This document shows, piece after piece, positions 4,689 to 60,392 of a stretch of 64,000 nt of DNA. A program made the translations under genes and the position numbers. The stretch comes from a virus, in the IMG/VR virus record IMGVR_UViG_3300028133_000003, positions 1 through 64,000 of that record; one strand, 5' to 3'. Position 1 is the stretch's first letter, and each line of letters opens with the position of its first letter. A model generated the notes under the pieces. It saw nothing but the letters and a program-made list of their open reading frames with translations. It made no database searches and was not told where the DNA came from.

Positions 4689-5960
4689 TTACCTACCGAA
4701 CTTAATGATACCTAATAGTTGATTAATTGCAGCAAATGTACCAGTAAGTTTATAAATCTTTCCCTTGTATTTAAATACTATTCCTTCAGTTGGAAATATA
4801 GATTCTATTCCACCAATTCTATCAAGCCTTGCTAGTTCAGCTTCTACCTTTCTTACTTGGTCAGCACCACCAGTCTTTTTAATTTTACTTCCTGCTGTTT
4901 GTATTTGAGCTCTTAGTCTTTGTGCTTCATCGGATGGATTAGCTGCTAAAAAGTCAGATGCATTTTTGAGAATCACAGATCCTAATTCTAAGAACAGATC
5001 TTCAAAAGGTCTAATGTTTTCTTTATACTTTTTAGCAACATCTTCTTTGTCAAACTTTTTAACCATCGCAGCTTCTTTAGGTCCAATTTGTTTAGCAAGA
5101 GATCTCATATTTAAACTCTTCTTATCGCCATACGCCCATCTCTTAAGTAAACCTTCTTTTACATCTTGAGATAATGCAGGGAATTGTTTATCAATTAATT
5201 CTCGCCACCACATTTCGTGATATTTAGCAACTTCATCACTATCAGTTAAACCATATCTTTTTTCTAAAGCGTTGACTTGATTTATAAATCTTTTCTTGTT
5301 TGTGGTAAAATCTAAATCTTTTTGTAATTTAATAACTCTAGGTGGAATTATTTTAAAAGTTTTACCAATATCTGATTGTACCTTTTTAAGTATATTTGCA
5401 ATTTCTTTTGCAGGTTTATTATTAGTACCTGTAATATTACCATTACCATCCGTTTCCTTTATACCATGAAATTGAATAACATCTGTATCATAATGGATAA
5501 CATTAGGGTTTTGTGAATAGATTAACTCCATGTTCATAAAGTCTTTTCCATTCTTAAAATATTTTTCTTGGTCAGCTGGAGAAAGAGCCATTAGCAACCT
5601 AGCTAAATCCTGTGCAGCAAATTGAAAAGTATCTTGTACTAATTTACTAGGATGCCCTTCAAATTTATTCTTAAATTCAGAAAGAGTCATTGGATTCTTT
5701 AACTCTGTTTTGTTTCTTGCAAATTTAACTTCACCGTCTTGGATAGTAGCAAATGCATTTTGGCCATCGGTCTTTTCAGTAGCATCTTCTTCAAAGTTTA
5801 ATTCACCTCTAAGACCAGCATCTATCATTGCCTTAAAATCACCAAAGGTTAAATCTTTATCGTCAAATGGATGGGCCATGTGACCAGCGGCACCTCCTTC
5901 AAAAAGAAATGGCTGGCTTTTGTCGGCCAGCCATTGTTCAAACAATTTTATATGTTTCAT
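4689..5960 (-). CDS. Capsid-tagged ligase-family nucleotidyltransferase
   Basis: This 423-aa protein shows the core motifs of ATP-dependent nucleic acid ligases. Motif I is K63-T-D-G66 in TEKTDGQN, followed by ARNK (81-84, motif Ia-like Arg82), an acidic motif III-like FMNMELIY (141-148), EGIVFKY (392-398, motif IV) and YKLTG (403-407, motif V). A roughly 240-residue helical insertion separates motifs III and IV, so it is not a standard T4 RNA ligase 1 or 2. The N-terminus, MKHIKLFEQWLADK followed by FLFEGG, fits a capsid-targeting tag with an LxE-G cleavage site. After the tag comes a GHMAHP motif. It probably ligates or caps nucleic acid, and by analogy with T4 Alt may be packaged and injected. 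Ligase fold is well supported; substrate is unknown. Confidence 0.65.
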   Translation of the reverse strand: MKHIKLFEQWLADKSQPFLFEGGAAGHMAHPFDDKDLTFGDFKAMIDAGLRGELNFEEDATEKTDGQNAFATIQDGEVKFARNKTELKNPMTLSEFKNKFEGHPSKLVQDTFQFAAQDLARLLMALSPADQEKYFKNGKDFMNMELIYSQNPNVIHYDTDVIQFHGIKETDGNGNITGTNNKPAKEIANILKKVQSDIGKTFKIIPPRVIKLQKDLDFTTNKKRFINQVNALEKRYGLTDSDEVAKYHEMWWRELIDKQFPALSQDVKEGLLKRWAYGDKKSLNMRSLAKQIGPKEAAMVKKFDKEDVAKKYKENIRPFEDLFLELGSVILKNASDFLAANPSDEAQRLRAQIQTAGSKIKKTGGADQVRKVEAELARLDRIGGIESIFPTEGIVFKYKGKIYKLTGTFAAINQLLGIIKFGR

Positions 5961-5968
5961 GTTTATGT

Positions 5969-6403
5969 TTATTTAAGGTTTCCTCTAGAATCAACCGCAG
6001 CGTATGCATAACCATTTTCTCCATTAATATCTTGAAGTATAATTACTTTTACATCGCCTAGCATTCCTTTATAAGCAGCTGTGTATGGTGATGGATCCAT
6101 TCCTTTCCCTCTATCATTACCAAGAAGGTTGGAACCTTTCATTTGAGGTTCAATAACATCATACAGTTCATCATCATCATTAGTAGTTGAAACCATTCCC
6201 ATATCAGAAATAGATCTTACTCCTAAATATTTTAAAGCTGGTTGGTAATTTTTATTAATATCCGCTACTGTCATTCCATCAAGATCAATATTACCTGTAA
6301 TATCTTTGAGGGAGTCATAAGGACCGCCTTCAACCCATGATGGTAATTCAGCTTCATTTAAGTTTTCATTTACGAAATCCGCAAACTTTTTTATATTACT
6401 CAT
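5969..6403 (-). CDS. Small capsid-tagged protein, unknown function
   Basis: This 144-aa protein is not recognised. The start MSNIKKFADFVNENLNEAELP contains the shared tag and a candidate cleavage site (LNE before AE). A second candidate is WVE before GG at residue 26. The rest is a small acidic, probably globular domain with an aspartate/asparagine-rich middle and a beta-rich end (VKVIILQDINGENGYAYAAV). It sits 8 bases upstream of the ligase-like gene and is probably co-transcribed with it. Because of the tag it is a candidate internal head protein. Confidence 0.6.
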   Translation of the reverse strand: MSNIKKFADFVNENLNEAELPSWVEGGPYDSLKDITGNIDLDGMTVADINKNYQPALKYLGVRSISDMGMVSTTNDDDELYDVIEPQMKGSNLLGNDRGKGMDPSPYTAAYKGMLGDVKVIILQDINGENGYAYAAVDSRGNLK

Positions 6404-6414
6404 ATCTTTAGTTT

Positions 6415-6870
6415 TTATTTGCTACTTTTTATAAAATCCTTTACCTCATCAATATCAGATTTAATTTTATCTAAGTCAGCTTGAGCTTCTTCTAACTCTT
6501 CTTCCTTTTCTTCTAATTGTTCTTTAGCCATTTCAGCCATGTCTTCATCACCATCAGAAATATCACTTTTTAAATCTGCTATCTCGGATCTAATATCTTT
6601 CATCTCATCAGCTTTTTCAGAATAGTCATCTTGAAGTTCTTTTAATTCAGCCTGAGCTTCTTTCATCTCATCAGATCCACTATCATCAGATCCACCTTTT
6701 AGTTGATCTTCTTTTGCTTTAACCTTTTTATACATAGGGTTGTCAGGATCTCCTAAAATTGTCTTAACAGTAACTTCTCTACCAGATTTAGGATTCTTAA
6801 TCTTAGTGTTATAAAATTTATCTAAATCGGATTCTAATAAAAATTGCTCAAATAATTTAATATGTTTCAT
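6415..6870 (-). CDS. Capsid-tagged coiled-coil protein
   Basis: The 151-aa product starts MKHIKLFEQFLLESDL, nearly identical over the first nine residues to the ligase-like protein two genes downstream (MKHIKLFEQ), with LLE before S as a possible cleavage point. Residues about 60-150 are a continuous, highly charged coiled coil rich in E, D, K and A. It resembles scaffold or prohead core proteins in composition, but no specific family is recognised. It lies between the acidic repeat protein and the 144-aa tagged protein, which suggests an internal head or core role. Confidence 0.6.
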   Translation of the reverse strand: MKHIKLFEQFLLESDLDKFYNTKIKNPKSGREVTVKTILGDPDNPMYKKVKAKEDQLKGGSDDSGSDEMKEAQAELKELQDDYSEKADEMKDIRSEIADLKSDISDGDEDMAEMAKEQLEEKEEELEEAQADLDKIKSDIDEVKDFIKSSK

Positions 6871-6895: not shown

Positions 6896-8434
6896 TTATG
6901 ATCCCATAGTAGATTGTAAAGCTCCGACCATTGCGCCGTAATCTTCACCATACTTCTTAAGTAATCCTTCAGCAGTTTCAGTTGCTTTAGTTTCGTCAAA
7001 ATCATCTCCGAATGCATCTTTTAGAATTGCCATTGCATATTCTTTAAATTCATCTGCAGATTTAATTTCTTTTTCAGTAATCTTAGCTTCTCCAACTAAT
7101 GCTTCACCTTTTGCTTCAGGTTGTACTTTTACTTTACCCATATTCATTACATCACCAGCAATACCTGCGGCAGATTCAGAACCGTCTCCCATTTCTGCAG
7201 GAACTTCAGTAGCATCCTTAAGATCATCAGCTTCACCTTTTACTTCGGTTGTAATATTTTGATCTTTAGTAACTAATTCTTCTCCTTTTGATTCAGGTTG
7301 TACTTTTACTTTACCCATATCCATTATATCACCAGCAATACCAGCAGCGGTTTCAGAACCGTCGCCTTTTTCTGCAGGAATAGCAAGACCATCATCGCCT
7401 GCTTCTTCATCAGCAACCTCATCACCTGTAACTTTAGTAATTACTTCACCAACACCTTCTTCTACAGCTTCTTCTTCCTCAGCTTCTATTTCTTCTTCAT
7501 CTACTTCTTCATCATTGTAAGATTCTGTTACAAAATTTGAAAAAGACATAATTCTTGATTCAGCTTTCTTTTCTTCTTCCTCATCATATTCAACATCTTT
7601 CTTTAATGCATCAATCTCGGAGTCATCAGATTTTACAGCTCCTTTATAATGGTCAGCCTTTTCTTTGTCATCTTCAGAATCAACTTTCTTATCACCTTTA
7701 TCTTCTAGCTCATCACCTTCCTTTTCATCATCCATACCTTCAGCTTCATCATCTTCACCAATAGCATCCGCAGATGCAACAACAACAGAATAGTCTTCAG
7801 GCTCTTCAGCATCATCAGCATATTTCACGTTCTTATTTACAGTAACTTCCTTTTCTTTAATGAAATCCTCAAAAGCCATAATTCTTTTAGTAGCAGCTGG
7901 AGTTTCTTCTTCTTCAGCAGCAACATCAACGCCGTCATTATCTTCAACTTCATCAGCCTCAGCAGGAACCTCATCAGTAATTTCAGGATCATCAGATATC
8001 TTATCGCCTGCCTTGTCTTCCAAATCCTTAGGTTCTCCCTTAGCGGATACTTCAGCTTCAATATCATCAGATGCATCTTCTTCTACATCATCAGTTTCAG
8101 CAACTTCACCAGCGGCTCCAGTTTCTTTATCTTCTTCCTTTTCACCTTCATCACCTTCTAATGATTTAGGTTCTCCTTTTTTATTAACATCATCAGCTAT
8201 ATCCTCGGCTCTATCTTCTTCTAAATCTTCTTCAGATATATCTTGTTTTGGAGAAACATCTTTTAGTAAACCTTCTAATTTACTTAATAGATTTTTTTCT
8301 TTCTTTAATTCTTCTACACTTTCGTAACCCATCTTTTTTACTAGATCCATTACGGCATCATGATTAGCGTCTACCGATTCATTAATTGAACCATCGGCTT
8401 TAGACATCATTGAAAACTTTTTAATTGGTTTCAT
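6896..8434 (-). CDS. Acidic repeat protein with three tag-like segments
   Basis: This 512-aa protein is extremely rich in Glu, Asp and Ala, with long disordered stretches. It starts MKPIKKFSMMSKADGSINES. Two further tag-like segments occur inside, RIMAFEDFIKEK (about 184-195) and RIMSFSNFVTES (about 294-305), so it reads like three modules each opened by the same peptide. Near the C-terminus a 36-residue sequence with the core AAGIAGD and GKVKVQPE is repeated at 59-residue spacing. The last about 60 residues (LKDAFGDDF, LLKKYGEDYGAM) look helical and globular. It may be a prohead core/scaffold or an internal polyprotein cut by the head protease. The function is inferred from composition and tag only. 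Confidence 0.6.
   Translation of the reverse strand: MKPIKKFSMMSKADGSINESVDANHDAVMDLVKKMGYESVEELKKEKNLLSKLEGLLKDVSPKQDISEEDLEEDRAEDIADDVNKKGEPKSLEGDEGEKEEDKETGAAGEVAETDDVEEDASDDIEAEVSAKGEPKDLEDKAGDKISDDPEITDEVPAEADEVEDNDGVDVAAEEEETPAATKRIMAFEDFIKEKEVTVNKNVKYADDAEEPEDYSVVVASADAIGEDDEAEGMDDEKEGDELEDKGDKKVDSEDDKEKADHYKGAVKSDDSEIDALKKDVEYDEEEEKKAESRIMSFSNFVTESYNDEEVDEEEIEAEEEEAVEEGVGEVITKVTGDEVADEEAGDDGLAIPAEKGDGSETAAGIAGDIMDMGKVKVQPESKGEELVTKDQNITTEVKGEADDLKDATEVPAEMGDGSESAAGIAGDVMNMGKVKVQPEAKGEALVGEAKITEKEIKSADEFKEYAMAILKDAFGDDFDETKATETAEGLLKKYGEDYGAMVGALQSTMGS
7094..7380 (-). repeat. Two-copy direct repeat, 177-base period
   Basis: Bases 7094-7203 and 7271-7380 are near-identical copies inside the acidic protein gene. 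Both encode a 36-residue unit with GDGSE(T/S)AAGIAGD and MGKVKVQPE. The differences are mostly silent or conservative, pointing to an old in-frame duplication. Confidence 0.75.
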
Positions 8435-9999: not shown

Positions 10000-10448
10000 T
10001 AAAATTCTTTATCATCTAAGTTTATTCTGTTTCTTATTGCAAATGCCATGTTATCTAATGTCTTAATACATTCATAGTAATAATCTATATGAGACTGTAG
10101 CATGTCAATCTGAGTTTTTAAAGAAGACAGATCGGCTTTTATAAATTGATGCTTTTCGCCATTCGTTAGTTTAACATCGTAATTAATTGAATACTCTCGG
10201 TACTGATTCTTATAGTACCTGTCCCAAGTAGCATTCCTTTTATATATTGTAGTTTTAAAATCAGTTACTTTATCTAATAAAATTTGCCTATATGATAACA
10301 TTCTTACTTGACATTCAGCAAGTTCATTCATGCTTTTTAATTTAGAAACAAGATCTTTAATCTTTGTTTTCCAATCATCCCTATCTGAGCTTAATCTAAT
10401 TTCTAATTGTTCGTTAGCTTCCTTTATTTGTGTATCATCAAATGCCAT
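9999..10448 (-). CDS. uvsY: UvsY-like recombination mediator
   Basis: The 149-aa protein sits directly upstream of uvsW with a one-base stop/start overlap. It has the all-helical layout of UvsY. Its C-terminal half (WDRYYKNQY, then FIKADLSSLKTQI, then MAFAIRNRI) lines up well with the T4 UvsY segment ending in GFAIKHIQDMRAF. UvsY loads UvsX recombinase onto gp32-coated single-stranded DNA. The assignment rests on this similarity recalled by eye plus gene order. UvsX itself is not in the window. Confidence 0.75.
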   Translation of the reverse strand: MAFDDTQIKEANEQLEIRLSSDRDDWKTKIKDLVSKLKSMNELAECQVRMLSYRQILLDKVTDFKTTIYKRNATWDRYYKNQYREYSINYDVKLTNGEKHQFIKADLSSLKTQIDMLQSHIDYYYECIKTLDNMAFAIRNRINLDDKEF

Positions 10449-10663
10449 TAAAATATTCCTTTATCGTTATTAATCTTTTTGTAACTTTTTACTTTTGGTT
10501 GAAATTTCTTTTTAGGTTGAGGTAACGAAAAGTTACTTTTTACACTATCAGTTTCAATCTTTTTAAACTTAGTAAATAATTTAAGCTTTTTCTTAGACGT
10601 TTCTAAGTCATTATAAAAATCCTCGAACTGTTCAGCCACGAATTCATTATATTTTTTTATCAT
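10448..10663 (-). CDS. Small basic protein with capsid-tag-like N-terminus
   Basis: This 71-aa protein is not recognised. Its start MIKKYNEFVAEQFEDFY is the closest match in the window to the T4 capsid-targeting sequence MKTYQEFIAEA. The rest is lysine-rich and probably unstructured (KKKLKLF, QPKKKFQPKVKSYKK), so it could bind DNA. It overlaps the primase stop by four bases and the uvsY start by one, which embeds it in the replication operon. It is either a DNA-condensing internal protein or a small replication accessory. Confidence 0.55.
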   Translation of the reverse strand: MIKKYNEFVAEQFEDFYNDLETSKKKLKLFTKFKKIETDSVKSNFSLPQPKKKFQPKVKSYKKINNDKGIF

Positions 10664-13226: not shown

Positions 13227-13901
13227 TTAAGTATTTAATGACCACCCTTTTTCTTTATTAGCATTTAATATGAAATATGAATCTACTAAGTCATCAATTG
13301 GTTTAGGGATCTTTTCTGTAAAGTCTTTACCTTGAGTCCATTTCCATAAATCTGTTTTCCTTAAATCTTTATCATTAAAAACGTCGTCTTGGAACGCCTT
13401 TACCATGTAATGTTTATTTGCATTACCTTTACCTGCTAATTTCTTAACATGGGAGGGTTGGTAAATTGAAATGTTTTCTACGCCCCAAGCATTAACAATT
13501 TCATTTCGTAAAAAGGTATTATACTGAACAATGTCAATAAATGAGTTTCCTTTTGAACCATAAGAGAATCCTTCTAATGCAATCTTATGGTTTTGAGTAC
13601 CAAATAAGGTTATTAAAATATTTGAAATTAAATCAGCTATGTTTTGGCCGTCTGTGAGTTTTTCCCTTTCCCTAAGTAAAAAGTCTTTATCTTTTACTTG
13701 TCTATAATAAGGAAATCCTAATATTGATTTATCATCCATTAGTTCTTTATGGACCGAGAATGACTTTGGGATTTTTCTACCTTCTTCATCCCATATTCGA
13801 TTACCGTAATTAAAGAATGTAATAAACGTGTATTTGCCTTTGCTATCCTGAGTACATGTACCTGGACTATTAAGAGAAAAATCTATACCTGTGTAAATCA
13901 A
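13227..13901 (-). CDS. RuvC-like Holliday junction nuclease
   Basis: The 224-aa protein shows the RNase H-like fold pattern of RuvC: first acidic residue D7 in TGIDFSLNSPG, a central glutamate E110 in IALEGFSYG, a conserved PSHVKKLAGKGNANK segment (149-163, like the RuvC PxxVK...G.G.A.K motif), and C-terminal acidic residues in PIDDLVDSYF (D203, D204, D207). It would cut branched recombination intermediates before packaging, a job done in T4 by the unrelated endonuclease VII. The 105-base gap to the GroES-like gene holds no gene that I can see. Confidence 0.75.
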   Translation of the reverse strand: MIYTGIDFSLNSPGTCTQDSKGKYTFITFFNYGNRIWDEEGRKIPKSFSVHKELMDDKSILGFPYYRQVKDKDFLLREREKLTDGQNIADLISNILITLFGTQNHKIALEGFSYGSKGNSFIDIVQYNTFLRNEIVNAWGVENISIYQPSHVKKLAGKGNANKHYMVKAFQDDVFNDKDLRKTDLWKWTQGKDFTEKIPKPIDDLVDSYFILNANKEKGWSLNT

Positions 13902-13911
13902 TTATAATGAA

Positions 13912-14268
13912 TTAAAGCTTCTTACCTAGTACTGCTCCTAATGCAGCACCAATTAATCGACTGGTTAGTAAATCATACAAGGCACCTTTTTGAATACCTA
14001 ATACTTTCGCGATAGCCTTTCCTACAGATTTACCTAAAGCAAATCCAGTAAGTCCACCTAAAACAGATCCTAATATACCTTCGTTAATTATTTCCTCCAT
14101 AATAACCTCTAAGTCTTTTCCGTTATTGTGCTCCTCCATAATTCTATCAACTGCATTATCAATTGCAGTTTCTTGCTCCTCGGTTAAATCATAAGATTCA
14201 TTTAATAGATTTTGTATATCTATAGAATCATCATGATCTTCTGTAAGATAATCTTTGAATGTTTTCAT
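13912..14268 (-). CDS. Capsid-tagged glycine-zipper membrane peptide precursor
   Basis: The 118-aa protein starts MKTFKDYLTEDHDD, very like the T4 capsid tag. An acidic helical stretch follows to about residue 66. A candidate protease site INE before GILGSVLGG (about 67-70) leads into two glycine-zipper membrane helices (GSVLGGLTGFALGKSVG and LIGAALGAVLGKK). Cleavage would release a roughly 50-residue hydrophobic, membrane-inserting peptide. Such helices are typical of pore-forming proteins and of ejected virion proteins. The gene lies between the RuvC-like nuclease and the first tail gene. Function is inferred. Confidence 0.65.
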   Translation of the reverse strand: MKTFKDYLTEDHDDSIDIQNLLNESYDLTEEQETAIDNAVDRIMEEHNNGKDLEVIMEEIINEGILGSVLGGLTGFALGKSVGKAIAKVLGIQKGALYDLLTSRLIGAALGAVLGKKL

Positions 14269-14290
14269 TGCTTTTGTATTTGTTTATATA

Positions 14291-14845
14291 TTAGGTTAGA
14301 TTAATTTTAGTTTCTAAAGCGTTGTATGTAAAATTAATATCAAAGGTTTGGAATTCTATCGTATTACTCGAGAAGTTTAAATCTAATGCACTAACCCCAG
14401 TCATTATCATATCTTTTAGTTGACAAGTTACAAAGATGTTACCTTCTCCATCTATCATTTGCAATCCTATACCTTCAGGCACAAACGGATCTTTACCACT
14501 CTGCTTATAATAAAAATCAAAAACTTCTACAGCCATCCAATAATTTACCCAACCGTCAAAAGCCTGCATAGTTACAGTTAATTGTTTATCAAATAATTCT
14601 TGTGTAGGTAAACTAGTTCTAAATCTTCTAGTATTTCCAGGAAAGTCATTTTGTGTAACTGGATCAAAACTAGGCCCAGGTAGATTCATTGATTGTATTC
14701 CATAATTAAAATAATCAATAGGTTCTTTTATCATAGACCCAGGCATCCTATTTAAGTATGGTTTATACTTATCCGAAATTTCCTTAGGAATAAAGTTTCT
14801 AGGAAATTCAAATTTAAATTGATTATTTCTTGCACTTAATATCAT
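14291..14845 (-). CDS. Tail-tube-like protein
   Basis: The 184-aa protein has the size of T4 tail tube gp19 (163 aa). It has beta-rich segments typical of tube-fold proteins: an IQSMNLPGPSF stretch, a central QLTVTMQAFDGWVNYWM, and a paired strand region near the end (SALDLNFSSNTIEFQTFDI). It may be the tail tube or a baseplate-proximal tube protein such as gp48 or gp54. It starts the long tail gene block, 8 bases from the next gene. No single motif proves the family. Confidence 0.45.
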   Translation of the reverse strand: MILSARNNQFKFEFPRNFIPKEISDKYKPYLNRMPGSMIKEPIDYFNYGIQSMNLPGPSFDPVTQNDFPGNTRRFRTSLPTQELFDKQLTVTMQAFDGWVNYWMAVEVFDFYYKQSGKDPFVPEGIGLQMIDGEGNIFVTCQLKDMIMTGVSALDLNFSSNTIEFQTFDINFTYNALETKINLT

Positions 14846-17992: not shown

Positions 17993-18231
17993 ATGCCTTC
18001 TTCATAGATTTTCATTAACTTATATGGAGTAACATTGCTCTCTCCATATTTTTTAATTAAATCATCCATAAACTTTTTTTCTTTACCTTTCATAGAATCA
18101 AGTTCTTCAAAAAGACCATCACGTTTTTCAGCTAAACTCTGTATACTCTTTTGCATAAGGTCTATCGAAGTTTCAATTTCTTTATACCTATCTACAAATC
18201 CTGCTAATTCTTTTCTTTCTTTTTTTGTCAT
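17989..18231 (-). CDS. Small coiled-coil protein
   Basis: The 80-aa product is one charged helical hairpin or coiled coil (residues 1-60) with a short end NVTPYKLMKIYEEGI. It overlaps the start of the membrane-anchored protein by four bases, which suggests translational coupling and perhaps a physical partnership. No family is recognised. Confidence 0.5.
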   Translation of the reverse strand: MTKKERKELAGFVDRYKEIETSIDLMQKSIQSLAEKRDGLFEELDSMKGKEKKFMDDLIKKYGESNVTPYKLMKIYEEGI

Positions 18232-18248
18232 TTTTCTAGTTTAAAATA

Positions 18249-20831
18249 TTAATAAATAAATGTATGTTGTTGTAATGTAACTCCTTTTACAACAAGACTA
18301 CCAAGGTTATGAGCTCCTGCTACATTATTCCACCCTTTTTGTATAATCTTTCCACTCTGACTGCCATTACCACTATTATAAAAAGGGGTTGGTCCTTGGC
18401 CGCTAAACATAAATGTAAAAGTTTTCTGAGAGTGAGTAATTAGATAGTTGGCGCCTTGTTTTTCAATATCATCATCAGTTTCAACTTCAAGAACTCCTTG
18501 TTGAGCAGTATAATATGTTTGAGTGGTTCCAGTTCCTTCTTTCCAATATTGAGCAGATATAAAGGCTCGACCACCTTGATTAATGAAAGGATTAAATCCA
18601 GTTCCAGTTTGGGCACCTGGGACGTCGGATGCTCTAAACTCGGATGGTGCCCAATAAAGCTCAACTACAACAGTTTGACCATAAGCCATGAGCGAATTGT
18701 CAAAACTTAGTATAAATTCTGGGAAAAACACATTTTTACCACCATTTAATTTTGTAGACCAAAAATCATAAGTATTCGCATCTATTTCACTTGTGCTACC
18801 TATTTGAATTCTAATATAAGGTTTAGTAACTGGGATAATTACCGATATTGCAATAGGGCTTACATCTTGCCAATCTATAAAAGGATCATAATAATACTCT
18901 TGGATGTTATTCTCTCCGCCTAAAATTAATTTATTACTTATCTTAGTAACTTCTTTATCAACCCTAAACATTTCCGAAGCAGGATTCATATTATTACTTG
19001 CTCCAGTATCAAACTGTGTTGGTATCGTTTCCGTAGGCCCTTCATTTACAAATATCCCTACACTATCATCAACATTTGTAGCTTGATTATACTTAGGAAT
19101 ACCTATTACTACCTGCGAATATTGACCATCATTAAATTGCTGAAATTGTGTAGTTGGAATTGTTAAATAATCACCATTGCTTGGGTCACCAAATTGTTGG
19201 ACAACTCTGTTCTGATTAGAAAAATTCGTATTATACCGTTGATATACACTAGGATCAGTAATTTGAGGTGTACTATCGGTAATTGACCATGATTGATAAC
19301 TAACAAACTCTGTGTGTGGTATGCTAACACCAGATTCAGCGTATTTAAGATTTATCCTAGGAACGATAGTCCCTGGGGCGATGTTAAGCTGACCTAATCT
19401 TATTTCGCCTCTACCTTGAATGTTAATATCTGAATTAACACCTTCTCCTTTTATATTAACTTCTGCACCATCTTGCCTAGCGCGTAAATCAACCTTATTT
19501 GGTAAAACATTAATTAAAGATGGAAGTGCTGGATTTACTCCGCCTTTACCGATCAAAGAGATACCTTGATTGGACAATACATTTACTTCTCCATTCACAC
19601 CTATGTTTTCTATAGTTATTATACCATCTTCTGACTGCAGAGCAATTGGACTAGCTCCACTGGCATTAGCTACTATATCAGTAGTTGATACCGTAAAGGC
19701 ATTAGATCCTGCAGTCATACCGGCTTTAAAATTTGATCTTATCTTTAACTCATCATTTGATTGTATAACTATTTCACCTGCCTCGGCAAGAATCTTACCA
19801 TCTAATACAGGGATTGAGCCAGGGACGGTTATATTTCCACCTACCTTTAAGTTTGCTTGTGCACCGGCACCAAGAACCTGTAAATCAAACTTAGCTTCTC
19901 CTGCACCATCTAACGGAGTAAAACTGTTTAATTCAATTTTAAAATCAGATGACCCAAATGAAGTATATGGATTTGTACCCATAGTACCACTAGTAAAGTT
20001 AAATCCTGTACCTGCTCTAAAATTTTGTCCTCTTTTGACCGTCTCATTAATAATTCCATAAGTATCAGCAATAGATAATGGAGAGGTTGATTGCTTAGGT
20101 ACAGAAATAGCTAATATATCATCAGGTAATAAACTAATATTACTAAGTAGTGATAATTGATCTTGTGTATAATTTTCAAAACCGTCACCACCCATAAATC
20201 TAATAGCCTGGGCCCCACTATTTTTTTGGTGTACTAACATACTAGTATTTTCTGATGATAGTTGCCCAGCCATTACCGTAGATAATTGATATGCACCAGT
20301 TAAAGGTATGCCAGGGTAATCTGCGTCATCAGGTCCAGCAATACCTACCGCGAATGTAGGAACACCTTCATTACTAGCATTAATAGTAGTATCAGTTGCT
20401 GGAATAAGAGAAGGGTAAGAAACATTTTTTGCAGCTGCTGAATAGTTACTTATCCCTGGTATTGGGGCATAACCAAACTGAGACAATCCTACCGAAGATC
20501 CAGTACTACCTTGTGGTCCTTGTAAATTTATTAAAGTGTTAACCCACGGTCCTCCTGGTTGATAAACCCAAACATCACCATTACTCTGCAAGTAATAATC
20601 ATTTGCTAATGGTGTTAATGTTGGTGGTGTTACAATAGGACTATCAGTCCCTTCGTACCATTCAGTACCTCTTTCCCCTCTCCCTCCAATAGGACCAGGT
20701 AAACCGGAAGGTCCTAGAGGTCCTATGGGACCACCACCATTCAATAATAGTTGATCAAAGTTAAAATTTATTTTATCAACTACTTGACTAACGGTATCAG
20801 AAGAAAGTAATTCTTGTATGGTTAATGCCAT
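18249..20831 (-). CDS. Fibre-like protein with short collagen stretch
   Basis: The 860-aa protein opens with an anchor-like segment (MALTIQELLSSDTVS, then KINFNFDQLL) that resembles the start of the 212-aa protein at 31615-32253. A proline-containing collagen-like stretch follows (GPIGPLGPSGLPGPIGG, about 33-55) and a second GPQGSTGSS site near 125. The long middle is rich in beta-solenoid-like Asn/Gly/Ile repeats (VNIKGEGVNSDINIQGRG), and a beta-rich end finishes the chain. This is the pattern of a trimeric tail or baseplate fibre. Receptor binding is plausible but unproved. Confidence 0.6.
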   Translation of the reverse strand: MALTIQELLSSDTVSQVVDKINFNFDQLLLNGGGPIGPLGPSGLPGPIGGRGERGTEWYEGTDSPIVTPPTLTPLANDYYLQSNGDVWVYQPGGPWVNTLINLQGPQGSTGSSVGLSQFGYAPIPGISNYSAAAKNVSYPSLIPATDTTINASNEGVPTFAVGIAGPDDADYPGIPLTGAYQLSTVMAGQLSSENTSMLVHQKNSGAQAIRFMGGDGFENYTQDQLSLLSNISLLPDDILAISVPKQSTSPLSIADTYGIINETVKRGQNFRAGTGFNFTSGTMGTNPYTSFGSSDFKIELNSFTPLDGAGEAKFDLQVLGAGAQANLKVGGNITVPGSIPVLDGKILAEAGEIVIQSNDELKIRSNFKAGMTAGSNAFTVSTTDIVANASGASPIALQSEDGIITIENIGVNGEVNVLSNQGISLIGKGGVNPALPSLINVLPNKVDLRARQDGAEVNIKGEGVNSDINIQGRGEIRLGQLNIAPGTIVPRINLKYAESGVSIPHTEFVSYQSWSITDSTPQITDPSVYQRYNTNFSNQNRVVQQFGDPSNGDYLTIPTTQFQQFNDGQYSQVVIGIPKYNQATNVDDSVGIFVNEGPTETIPTQFDTGASNNMNPASEMFRVDKEVTKISNKLILGGENNIQEYYYDPFIDWQDVSPIAISVIIPVTKPYIRIQIGSTSEIDANTYDFWSTKLNGGKNVFFPEFILSFDNSLMAYGQTVVVELYWAPSEFRASDVPGAQTGTGFNPFINQGGRAFISAQYWKEGTGTTQTYYTAQQGVLEVETDDDIEKQGANYLITHSQKTFTFMFSGQGPTPFYNSGNGSQSGKIIQKGWNNVAGAHNLGSLVVKGVTLQQHTFIY

Positions 20832-20838
20832 CGTATTT

Positions 20839-23800
20839 CTATTTTTTAATTATGGTAATACTAAAACCAAACGATTCAGTAAAACCACTCCTTTTGTTAT
20901 ATATTAGGCCGAGATCAAATTGATTTGTATTTAATAATTTTGATCCTATTGCATCGTTAATACTTAAACCGCTTGATAATTTTTCAGAATTAGTTAGAGA
21001 TGCTGTGTTAAAGTTGTTTAATGCTCTTTGCCTAGTTGCATTAACATAAAAATCAACATTAGATACTTTATAAAGCTGTAAAATATTTTGTTTAATATAT
21101 CTTTCTACATCATCATCTAAAGTCTTAATATCACCAAAGCTAAATTCTGGTTTAATATACTTTTTAAATTGCTCTTTTATAGGTTCAAATAAAAATTCAA
21201 TTAATCTTTTTTGAATAAAGAGATAAAATTTAATAGATGTTTTATTTTCAGTTTTCATAAATGTCCCATCTATTAAAGAAGGTTGCTTAATTGCATCCTT
21301 AATAAATTCAGGAGAATATAAAAAAGTTTCAAGCTCTATTTGTTCTGGTACCTTTAAGTATTTAGATCCAAAGAATGATTTTCTTTCTGTCATTGCTTTT
21401 GTACCTATTATAGATTCAATTAAAGATTTATCAATACTCTTCCTAAAATAAGCAGGTTCCCAGTTAGAAGAAAATGTATAAAAATCTCTACTAGCAATTC
21501 CTACCTCATTAATAAGTGGGTATAAGCTTAAGAATGCACTATCCCTAGAAAGTTCTAATACTGTTGATGGATCCTCCTCGTTTACTTTATGATAAAACAA
21601 ATTCTTTATTATCCCAAAGTTGTCTACATCACTACTATTAAACTGAGTATTTGAATATCTACATAATTCCATTACCTTAAATTTATATAGCTCATCGGTT
21701 ATAGATCCACCAGTAGACCCAGTAACATTATCAAAATCAATTCCAATATAAGGATCTCTAAAATAAAAAATATCCAAGGCAGTAGGTTTATAGTACCCAG
21801 CATGTCTACCTATTGGAGTTACTCTAGGTTTTGTTTGTAGAGATAAATCATAACCGATAATATCAGTTAAATTAAATACGGTTGGTTTTGCAGGATCAGG
21901 TAATCTTCCAATATATACAGATTTTAAAATGTCTTCTTGTGCTCTTAATTCTATTGAAAACGTTTGGGCCATATTACCATCAGAATCTAAAACCCTATTA
22001 CCTTCTTTATCTATAGTTTCATAAATAATATCAGGCGCGCCTTGATTAACATTTTTTAATATAGTAGCAAAACCTACATCAGATAGTCTTGATGTGTATG
22101 TATTAAATCCACCATTTACTGTAAAATAATCAGCAGCCTGTAAATCTATAATAGATGGTACAGAACCACCTGGTACAAATGGAACCCCATTGGCAGTAAT
22201 AGTTTTTGCAAAAAATTGATTATTAGATACAACTCTTACTATTCCACCTATTTCATAAACAACATTATTAATTTCAAAACTAACCGGATTAAAATTACCA
22301 TTACTACCAATAGTTATATCTCTTAAGAATCTAGGATTATTACCGTTAACATCATTTATACCTTGAACTAAATAAGCATTAACCGTAGGATTAAAACTAG
22401 TTCCAACAAATGATATTGCACCTTGTACTATACCTTCCTTGTAAAAATAATTACCTTCTTCTCCTGTGACTTCTGATTGTATCGGTTCACAACTGTTAAA
22501 AGATTGTGTATGAACTTTATAATCACTTTCATATGAATACAAAGTAGTTCTATCAATACTTTGGTTGCCATCATTTATACATTCATTATCTAAAGTTAAA
22601 AAAACCATCATTACAACAGTCTTCCATTTATCATTCTTAATAAACTTAATCTCGGTCTCAGGTTTATTTGGTGCATTCGGCACAAGTATAGTAGAAAATC
22701 TATAATCATTAAATCTGCCATCATTAACATATTTTAATGACCTCGCATTAAAGTTAGGTTTTGTGGCTATATCAGCTTTAGGTTTTGCTACTATTCTAAC
22801 ACCTCTTAAAAATGCTTCAGCAAAATTCTTTTCATCACCACCACTGAATCTACCGTATCTTAACTGCCTATCTATTAAATTTATTATACCTCCGGTTGTA
22901 AACTTATCAACAATAAAATAATCATTAAAATAATCTTTATTAATATCCTGGAATGTACCTGGGGTATACACAGTACCAGTTATAGGGTTGCTTTCTATTG
23001 TATCTGTTGGCGCTTTATCTATATAACTCCACGAAGACTTAATTGCTTCGTTATTAAAATAATAAGGAAACTCACTTAAGTAGTACCATTCATGTGTAAA
23101 TCCTGTGGCATCTTGGCCGATAGTCCATTTAGACGGTGCAAAGTTATTGGTACCAAATGATTCATTTACATTTAAACTATATGGTAAGTTTCTTACGTTC
23201 TTACCATCATTAATCCATGACCACTTATTTATATAAGGAATTACTCTAGATGCGACTGCCTGTTGTTTTAAATAGTTTTCTTCTAACCTATCATATTCTG
23301 ATTCAATAAAAGTATCAAAATCAACATCAGGATCTGCATTTTTTAATAAACCTATTAACTCAGAAAAACCGCCATCATCATAAAATCTTCTTATGTCAGG
23401 GTTTGCACTAACGTTAACATATTCACCATCTATTTCTTGGTTATAATGATCTACTTCATAATTAAGCTCCCCTAGTCTACTATACATAGTACTATAAAAG
23501 TCATAATCAAAATCTCTAACAGGAAATATTGAAAATCTACCAAAAGAAGGTCTATAGTCAGAATATAAAGCAACCTGCCCACTATTAGTAACAGTTATCT
23601 GATTATCATTTAATGTTATTATTACATATTCATCAATCTCATTATATCCTATGATATCACCAGTGCCATTTATAATAGGACTTTCTAAATATGGTACCCA
23701 ATCACCGATAGTTGCCCACCCATCATTAGATTGGACATAATTACCAGGAATGAATCTATCTTGATCCCCGTTTGCAACCTTAAGTAAAGAATTAGTAACA

Positions 23801-58826: not shown

Positions 58827-59330
58827 ATGAAAAAGGTACCTTTATTTGAAGATTTTGTCCCTGCTGGCTTTGCCGCAAATAATGCAGCTCAATTTTCTCT
58901 TGGTGGAGTTAACAACACCGAAACAGGATATAACATGGATGCAATAGTTGGGCCAGTTGAACAATGCTCAAACCATGTAGCTGAACAAGCTAACAGTTAC
59001 GAATCAAATGATAATGCTGAGCATACCGCAGAAGCATACATTAAAGAGGCTAAGAAACATATTAATGATAAGATAGACGAAGCATGCGAAAGCTATTCTG
59101 CTATGTCTGAATCTACTCTTAATGAAGGAACTGATATTAGTTCTTGGAATCAAGCCGGTATTAAAGGCGATGCTAATGCACAGATAACTACCTTTGTCGG
59201 ACCTAAGGATATTGAAGATTTTGGCCTAGGTAGAAAATGTATGCAAATAAACATAGGAAGAAATTACGTTCAATTAAATCCTGCTGATATTGTAGAATTA
59301 AAGGACCTCCTTAAAAACTATAAAGTATAA
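58827..59330 (+). CDS. Capsid-tagged protein, first gene of plus-strand cluster
   Basis: The 167-aa protein starts MKKVPLFEDFVPAGFAANNA, a clear tag (LFEDFV). An acidic helical middle (EHTAEAYIKEAKKHINDKI) leads to a second candidate cleavage site (TLNE before GTDIS, about residue 96), then a beta/alpha domain (DANAQITTFVGP, then PADIVELKDLLKNY). It may be cut twice by a head protease. It is one base from the next gene. Confidence 0.6.
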   Translation: MKKVPLFEDFVPAGFAANNAAQFSLGGVNNTETGYNMDAIVGPVEQCSNHVAEQANSYESNDNAEHTAEAYIKEAKKHINDKIDEACESYSAMSESTLNEGTDISSWNQAGIKGDANAQITTFVGPKDIEDFGLGRKCMQINIGRNYVQLNPADIVELKDLLKNYKV

Positions 59331-59331
59331 T

Positions 59332-59577
59332 ATGATACCTAAATTTGAAAACTATTTAAATGAAGCTTCTGATTATGAATTTAATCCTAATGAAGCAGCG
59401 AGAAGATTAAAGGATAGAGAAAAAGAAAACATCCAAAGGTATAGGGCTGCACAAGAGCGTGGTGATAATTATGCCGTTGAGTTATATGAACTAAAAATCA
59501 AAATGGATAAAATTGACCTTGAAGGGTTAAAGGTACAAACCGCAATTCACCAACTTAAACAAAAGAATGGAAAGTAA
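59332..59577 (+). CDS. Capsid-tagged helical protein, 81 aa
   Basis: The protein starts MIPKFENYLNEASDYEF, a tag with an LNE-A cleavage pattern. The rest is charged helices (EAARRLKDREKENIQRYRAA). It overlaps the next gene by one base. Not recognised beyond the tag. Confidence 0.6.
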   Translation: MIPKFENYLNEASDYEFNPNEAARRLKDREKENIQRYRAAQERGDNYAVELYELKIKMDKIDLEGLKVQTAIHQLKQKNGK

Positions 59578-59897
59578 TGATAGGTAAGTTTGATGAATTC
59601 TTAAATGAAAAAAACTTTATGGTAGCAACAGCTGATACTGCTGTTAAATATAGACTATCACACATGCCTATGTCAGGTTATATTGTAGCAATGGCAGCAA
59701 GCGGTAAAGAATTAGATAAAGAAATAAAATCAGGATTTTCTAAAACTGCAATTGCTAAAGATATAGAAGATATGTTAAATGATCAATTAAAAAAGTATAG
59801 ACAGTTTATTACTGTAAGTGTTGATAATACTTATAAAGGGGCAGGTTATGCATTTACGATTGACATGGATGAATTACTAAAAACATTAAACAGATAA
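59577..59897 (+). CDS. Capsid-tagged protein, 106 aa
   Basis: The protein starts MIGKFDEFLNEKNFMV. It continues with a mixed alpha/beta part (LSHMPMSGYIVAMAASG, then QFITVSVDNTYKGAGYAF). The LNE before K is a weaker cleavage site. It overlaps both neighbours by one base. Its function is unknown. Confidence 0.6.
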   Translation: MIGKFDEFLNEKNFMVATADTAVKYRLSHMPMSGYIVAMAASGKELDKEIKSGFSKTAIAKDIEDMLNDQLKKYRQFITVSVDNTYKGAGYAFTIDMDELLKTLNR

Positions 59898-60115
59898 TGG
59901 AAAATAACCAAGAAAGGGCAGACTTAAGTAAAATCCGCCACTATAAAGGAACAGTAAAAGATTTTAAAAATTACTGGGATGAAATGGCTGGAACTGAAAC
60001 TAATGCATTTGGTACTCCAGAATATCAAGGTTTTAATAATGTACACCCTACTCGCGGTGAAGGTGATAGTGAACATTGGAAAACATCAAATGTAACTAAA
60101 AGTAAACAAAAATAA
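59897..60115 (+). CDS. Small hydrophilic protein, 72 aa
   Basis: The protein is hydrophilic with a helix near residues 20-32 (KDFKNYWDEM) and a flexible Gly/Asn/Ser end. It has no tag of its own, although it sits between tagged genes and is translated with them. Not recognised. Confidence 0.5.
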   Translation: MENNQERADLSKIRHYKGTVKDFKNYWDEMAGTETNAFGTPEYQGFNNVHPTRGEGDSEHWKTSNVTKSKQK

Positions 60116-60125
60116 ATAATTTAAA

Positions 60126-60392
60126 ATGAAAAAACATATACCACTATTCGAAGACTTCAATTTAAATGAAGGAAGAACCACAGATGGTTTAAGTAAAGAT
60201 GGAATGAAAATCTTTTTGGATTTACAAGATCTTGTAGGATTTGAAAAAGGTGATACTATTACAAATTACAATAAGATTGATCCAGCTATAAAAGATCATA
60301 AGCTATATAAAAAGATATCCCCTAGAGATATGAGAATCTTAGGTAATGCATTAGGTAACTTAATGAGGATAGCAATTAGAATGGAGAGATAA
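60126..60392 (+). CDS. Capsid-tagged protein, 88 aa
   Basis: The protein starts MKKHIPLFEDFNLNEGRTTD: tag plus NLNE-G cleavage site. The remainder is a small alpha-helical domain (KDGMKIFLDLQDLVGFEK, then ILGNALGNLMRIA). It is the last gene of the plus-strand cluster, followed by a two-way terminator. Its role inside the head is inferred. Confidence 0.6.
   Translation: MKKHIPLFEDFNLNEGRTTDGLSKDGMKIFLDLQDLVGFEKGDTITNYNKIDPAIKDHKLYKKISPRDMRILGNALGNLMRIAIRMER

Follow-up and report, generated by a model that had tools for sequence, protein, structure and literature searches.

A conserved 118-residue protein of giant T4-like phages as a possible internal head protein releasing a glycine-zipper peptide

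A small gene in the window (the 64,000-nucleotide stretch of DNA analyzed here, part of a 68,218-base virus record of a marine, T4-like giant phage) encodes a 118-residue protein that may belong with the internal head proteins (IPs) of T4 and release a membrane-acting peptide that is used at DNA entry. We assign this reading a probability of roughly 0.5. Packaging plus cleavage is probable on the sequence comparisons described below, and membrane action at entry, which is read from the physical chemistry of the peptide, is plausible at a little under an even chance. The reading frame is exactly where the original prediction had placed it, with MKTFKDYLTED at residues 1-11, INE at residues 61-63 and GILGSVLGG from residue 64, the two motifs lying about 50 residues apart (Table 1).

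Table 1. Coordinates of the precursor gene, its predicted parts and other tag-bearing proteins in the window
Feature	Position	Strand	Basis
Precursor gene, 118 aa, ATG start	13912..14268	minus	ORF, relatives and selection
Capsid-targeting-type N-terminus MKTFKDYLTE, residues 1-10; putative cut after E10	14239..14268	minus	T4 IP match, conservation
Acidic spacer, residues 11-63, with second conserved LNE site at 22-24	14080..14238	minus	
I-N-E (61-63), putative prohead-protease site E63↓G64	14080..14088	minus	Invariance, dN/dS 0.05
Predicted mature peptide, residues 64-118	13915..14079	minus	55 aa, net +6, pI 10.4
Candidate cargo, N-terminus MSNIKKFADFVNE	5969..6403	minus	Tag-type N-terminus
Candidate cargo, N-terminus MKHIKLFEQFLLE	6415..6870	minus	Tag-type N-terminus
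Candidate cargo, N-terminus MIKKYNEFVAE	10448..10663	minus	Tag-type N-terminus
Candidate cargo, N-terminus MIPKFENYLNE	59332..59577	plus	Tag-type N-terminus
Candidate cargo, N-terminus MIGKFDEFLNE	59577..59897	plus	Tag-type N-terminus
Acidic protein, 512 aa, internal tag motifs RIMAFEDFIKE and RIMSFSNFVTE	6896..8434	minus	p = 0.005 for both

The 118-residue ORF is a real gene. Purifying selection acts on it among its IMG/VR relatives (overall dN/dS 0.13), with the lowest value in the capsid-targeting sequence (CTS; 0.04), followed by residues 61-64 (0.05) and the peptide at residues 65-118 (0.10). It lies between a tail-tube gene (14291-14845) and a RuvC-like gene (13227-13901), and this order is fixed in non-redundant IMG/VR loci: the tail-tube gene precedes it in 77/78 and the RuvC-like gene follows it in 80/80. 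T4-like genes in the window encode UvsW, UvsY, primase, gp32, a GroES-like gp31, the RuvC-like resolvase, tail-tube and baseplate proteins. Counting against a head protein, the neighbours of the 118-residue gene in the window have tail and replication functions instead of head functions. Scans for sigma-70 promoters gave results at or below chance level. Also in the tail region, a protein encoded at 18249-20831 on the minus strand has a collagen-like GPIGPLGPSGLPGP segment close to its N-terminus.

A first scan of IMG/VR viral contigs confirmed 301 relatives of the protein. The 462-kb uncultured phage LR756500 carries a copy that is 51% identical and lies in the same gene order, and copies with 37-41% identity are found in 15 of 15 records of Prevotella Lak megaphages. 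The Lak-C1 homolog (152855-153181, 108 aa) is alignable over most of its length and retains both the invariant E-G site and the KG-x-L-x-x-LLTSRLV core, but differs in its N-terminus, MSEKYNNLFE↓G (arrows mark putative cuts), and has fewer zipper glycines. As no homolog was detectable in PAU, PTm1 or MA9V-1 (nor in T4), the glycine-zipper peptide does not extend to every member of the wider phage group. Among 84,980 genomes of bacteria and archaea no relative was confirmed, which gives no sign of a cellular origin. Judged by the portal protein of a close relative, PAU, PTm1 and MA9V-1 are the nearest phages in culture, all of which infect Bacteroidota (PTm1 infects Tenacibaculum, MA9V-1 infects Chryseobacterium and the PAU host has been reclassified as Sphingobacterium (PMC3738902)), so the host of the window phage is likely also a member of this phylum. 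Two PHROG families whose function is not known, 5453 and 22557, were matched at E-values of ~2e-4 (14 and 18 of 21 members), while a PDB sequence search with the family profile returned nothing (best E-value: 0.16). Matches to glycine-zipper and E492-microcin families in Pfam and NCBIfam were sub-threshold only and were treated as a matter of composition.

The first ten residues closely resemble the CTS of the T4 internal proteins, which in the T4 record reads MKTYQEFIAE in ipII and ipIII and begins MKTFKEF in ipI. Experiments with the T4 sequence assign targeting to residues 4 and 7 and processing to residues 8 and 10, and Asp at position 10 prevents processing (PMC9026906). When column conservation was determined over 71 distinct relatives, Lak included, position 4 was fixed as F except for one gap (the Lak copy), position 7 was Y or F, position 8 was aliphatic in 69/71 and position 10 was Glu in 68/71, with K in one relative (L066); positions 5, 6 and 9 were variable. 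The protein accordingly has the features of a T4 IP tag (aromatic residues at 4 and 7, an aliphatic residue at 8 and Glu at 10), and in this alignment the frozen positions are those that matter experimentally in T4.

T4 gp21 cleaves after L/I-x-E (PMC9026906). Three conserved L/I/V-x-E sites are found in the 118-residue protein, at residues 8-10, 22-24 and 61-63. Because the spacer is rich in Glu, such sites are common there and their presence alone proves little. E63-G64 is invariant in 71/71 distinct sequences, Lak included, so that an I/V-N-E↓G site stands ahead of the mature part as in the T4 IPs; the V found at P3 in 29/71 sequences is a mild departure from the strict L/I of T4. Asp replaces Glu in 0/209 cases at the three L/I/V-x-E sites versus 58/466 at other conserved Glu columns, an informal comparison given that the sequences are related. 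Both a T4-type prohead protease and a gp23 capsid protein are encoded by LR756500, by Lak and by a close relative, G011 (IMG/VR 3300031519_006853); the evidence for these partners comes via relatives, the 68-kb record of the window being a fragment without them. The Lak homolog is situated ~4.3 kb from the prohead protease gene in Lak-C1 and ~3 kb from it in Lak-B8. An L-x-E sequence also occurs near the start of the mature capsid domain in G011 (HNLNE↓SV), LR756500 (HELYE↓NA) and Lak (AKLNE↓DA), where the cuts are inferred. For PAU, N-terminal sequencing gave a mature capsid protein of 520 of 585 residues (PMC5646251), and this published size is within one residue of that expected for a cut after A-L-M-E64. 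The packaging and cleavage proposed in the original prediction are thus supported by the CTS match, the frozen functional positions and the invariant E63-G64, as well as by the T4-type protease of more complete relatives, the linkage in Lak and the tagged proteins in head clusters described below.

Cleavage after E63 would give a 55-residue peptide of 5.35 kDa. Net charge is -16 for residues 1-63 and +6 for residues 64-118. Glycines spaced at i+4 occur at 67/71/75/79/83 and 107/111/115, and with 91/95 there are seven GxxxG pairs, against an expectation of 2.3 when the residues are shuffled (p = 0.0007). AlphaFold2 predicts, with modest confidence, helices at 65-90 and 96-117 in the 55-mer (mean pLDDT 68), and confidence for the whole precursor is low (62). 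Lys 80, 84 and 88 would form one face next to Gly 75, 79 and 83, as read from the sequence. The glycine-zipper peptide of about 50 residues with two helices that had been claimed is therefore confirmed at the level of sequence features, with a length of 55 residues and two predicted helices. On the Wimley-White octanol scale, none of the 19-residue windows had a favourable transfer energy (the best ones were slightly unfavourable, by 0.7-0.9 kcal/mol), and the peptide is consequently not a classical transmembrane helix. Its sequence is amphipathic and borderline in hydrophobicity and, for this reason, the modelled peptide resembles a pair of helices that could work in a membrane only by oligomerization or in an interfacial mode, unlike a classical two-span protein. 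Foldseek comparison of the 55-mer with viral structures gave no match at E ≤ 0.001, and the Pfam cut-offs for glycine zippers were not reached (PF05433, 16.5 versus 24.2 bits; PF13488, 13.6 versus 25).

These features suggest a four-step pathway. The first ten residues would anchor the precursor to the prohead's scaffold core, a step for which the comparative evidence is strong. The T4-type prohead protease would then cleave after E10, and probably after E24, to remove the tag, and further cleavage after E63 would remove the acidic spacer; for these cleavages, too, the comparison with relatives and T4 is strong evidence. A 55-residue cationic helix-loop-helix peptide with glycine zippers would remain with the packaged DNA; before cleavage, the acidic spacer may hold this peptide soluble and inert. 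At infection, the peptide would exit with the DNA, insert in or lie on the host inner membrane and oligomerize via its GxxxG faces, either helping DNA or cargo to cross or sealing the membrane. For this last step the original prediction, which is supported in part, had proposed a channel that may form in the inner membrane as DNA enters.

The tag is not confined to this protein. When the beginnings of ORFs were scanned for [FY]xx[FYW][LIVM]xE, matches were found in 6/62 ORFs of the window (0.25 expected, p = 2e-7) and in 21/619 ORFs of LR756500 (2.2 expected, p = 2e-14), the latter mostly of the form MKYIxxYEEFLxE. Other phages have dialects of their own: 19 PAU proteins, including two with the annotation "internal capsid protein", have starts like MKTLTKLYE (p = 1e-24), and eight Lak proteins have L[FLM]E[SGA] (p = 3.5e-5). 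All of these p-values, those for the window and LR756500 included, are optimistic, as the motifs were picked after examples had been seen. Within each related phage, one kind of tag is common to many otherwise unrelated proteins, and the N-terminus of the glycine-zipper protein is in whichever dialect its phage uses, being of the T4 type in the window group and in LR756500 (there at residues 14-24, after a short extension) and LFE↓G in Lak. Tagged genes also occur among head genes: in G011, the product encoded at 22041, immediately after gp23, begins MAKLKTYSEFLNEG, and in Chryseobacterium phage MA9V-1, gp150 (MKTFTCFINEA) lies between the portal and protease genes.

Several further observations concern such N-termini. 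In PAU (JQ362498.1), 19 small proteins encoded at 100248-113735 and elsewhere begin like MKTLTKLYEAKLNE, many around the portal, protease and capsid genes, and from their sequences they are predicted to be head cargo of an isolated phage. Lak-C1 (MK250029.1) has several proteins with the Lak-specific N-terminus MNKxIKKL[LM]E[SN]LFDD (for example, those at 142601-143299, 151442-152827 and 269360-270277). At least 12 LR756500.1 proteins (L355-L374 and L386-L388) combine an N-terminal MKYIxxYEEF tag with a C-terminal NADDFGFFDN tag, as at 13446-14282 and 198758-199531, with several being leucine-rich-repeat-like between the tags; they look like a cargo or sorting system. In the window, a run of short genes on the plus strand (58827-60392) includes four tag-like N-termini (MKKVPLFEDFV, MIPKFENYLNE, MIGKFDEFLNE and MKKHIPLFEDFNLNE). 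A 423-residue protein encoded on the minus strand (4689-5960) has the near-tag N-terminus MKHIKLFEQWL, and its LR756500 homolog has the full tag MKFLKSYEEFLNE. It has no match in Pfam, PHROG or NCBIfam; a TDGQ segment in its sequence suggests a nucleotidyltransferase- or ligase-like enzyme, possibly a packaged one.

Tag motifs are also present inside putative scaffold or core proteins. The G011 gene at 18182-19903 (L292) encodes a fusion of the prohead protease with a long tail in which 14-residue repeats occur (...YSEYLGENLTKSIKYSEYIAEN...). Seven internal T4-type tag motifs occur in this protease/scaffold polypeptide (p = 3e-10), and its tail is likely a built-in scaffold with repeats that resemble the cargo tag. 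The acidic 512-residue protein of the window is possibly a head-core component. Because internal motifs occur in both proteins (seven and two, respectively), a simple motif count suggests that the tag imitates the scaffold repeat. Scoring with a 14-column matrix built from the scaffold repeats of G011 and LR756500 did not single out the tagged N-termini. A broader proposal, which we regard as tentative and rather doubtful, is that the heads of giant T4-like Bacteroidota phages are loaded with many interchangeable proteins, each labelled at its N-terminus in a dialect that is particular to the phage and imitates a repeat of its own scaffold. One conserved member of this set would be a pro-peptide from which the prohead protease makes a glycine-zipper peptide that inserts into the membrane at DNA entry.

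The main rival to a role at entry accepts packaging and cleavage but has the peptide act inside the particle, either as a head-core or assembly part (for example, tethering the prohead core to the inner membrane, the site of T4-type prohead assembly) or as a cationic DNA-condensing peptide. The precursor may indeed be a true core member, given that the tag motif recurs in the putative gp21 scaffold region of G011 and in the acidic 512-residue protein, and a peptide with a charge of +6 is strongly cationic. Core components are usually degraded, however, whereas the C-terminal peptide is strongly conserved to its very end, and a glycine zipper would be an atypical design for binding DNA; we consider this rival unlikely, if worth serious attention. 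The remaining readings are less likely still. One that questions the tag itself, and that we judge improbable, takes the shared N-termini as a signal other than capsid targeting, such as localization within the infected cell. In LR756500, the head cluster is distant from most of the tagged genes, leucine-rich-repeat-like products are encoded by several of them and the C-terminal NADDFGFFDN is present in many, but the T4 ip genes are likewise scattered among unrelated genes, the motif equals the experimentally defined CTS and ends in L/I-x-E, and head clusters do include tagged genes.

Gene position could instead point to the tail or neck, where the protein might be an accessory of the tube lumen or the tape measure and be expressed together with the neighbouring tail-tube gene, which the 118-residue gene follows in 77/78 loci; there is also a weak PHROG match to a tape-measure profile (E-value: 0.096). 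A tail protein would have no use for a T4-type CTS or an invariant protease site, and the Lak gene lies apart from the tail-tube gene and near the prohead protease, so this assignment is about as improbable as that of a non-capsid signal. Lowest of all we place a small inner-membrane protein made during infection, whether a lysis factor of the holin/antiholin type or one for superinfection exclusion. Its small size and glycine-zipper C-terminus would fit, and several of the non-significant Foldseek matches are holins (E > 4), but the protein has no classical transmembrane segment, while a holin is expected to have at least one clear transmembrane helix. Such a role also gives no reason for the frozen CTS residues or E63-G64, and the N-terminus varies with the tag dialect of the phage.

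Little is understood of how contractile-tailed phages get their DNA through the inner membrane. A conserved peptide synthesized in an inert form, packed into the head and switched on by prohead proteolysis would offer a clean and testable candidate for a part in DNA entry, and its carriers include abundant marine phages as well as Lak megaphages. The dialects would provide a simple sequence rule for predicting the head cargo of giant Bacteroidota phages; such cargo is now known only where virion proteomes exist, and none was found for a carrier phage in the open-access literature.

Several known systems share parts of this proposal. Glycine-zipper domains (PF05433 and PF13488) and effectors such as Tde1 have repeated GxxxG in short helices and an expected membrane association in common with the peptide, but it scores well under the Pfam cut-offs and does not share their domain architecture. 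Ejection (pilot) proteins of podoviruses (P22 gp7, gp16 and gp20; T7 gp14-16) are internal, accompany the DNA out of the particle and work at the envelope, as is proposed here; those proteins are large and show no homology, whereas a 55-residue peptide would here arise by prohead proteolysis in a phage with a T4-like contractile-tail gene set. The head proteins of ϕKZ and SPN3US are also packaged cargo of giant phages from which a gp21-related protease removes propeptides C-terminal to Glu, but there the motif is S/A-x-E and the propeptides are unrelated, in contrast to the L/I/V-x-E sites and T4-type tag found here. The tag, the protease and the motif are already known from T4; the open-access papers searched describe neither phage-specific tag dialects nor a pro-peptide, common to marine phages and Lak megaphages, in which an additional invariant cut site would free a glycine-zipper peptide. 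The closest likeness is to T4 ipI, ipII and ipIII, small proteins with no other recognized domain that have a nearly identical tag, the same key residues and Glu at P1 of L/I-x-E. This similarity is seen in the tag only, and the window protein differs from the T4 IPs in having another invariant cut site, 53 residues beyond the first, and a mature part that is a cationic glycine-zipper peptide.
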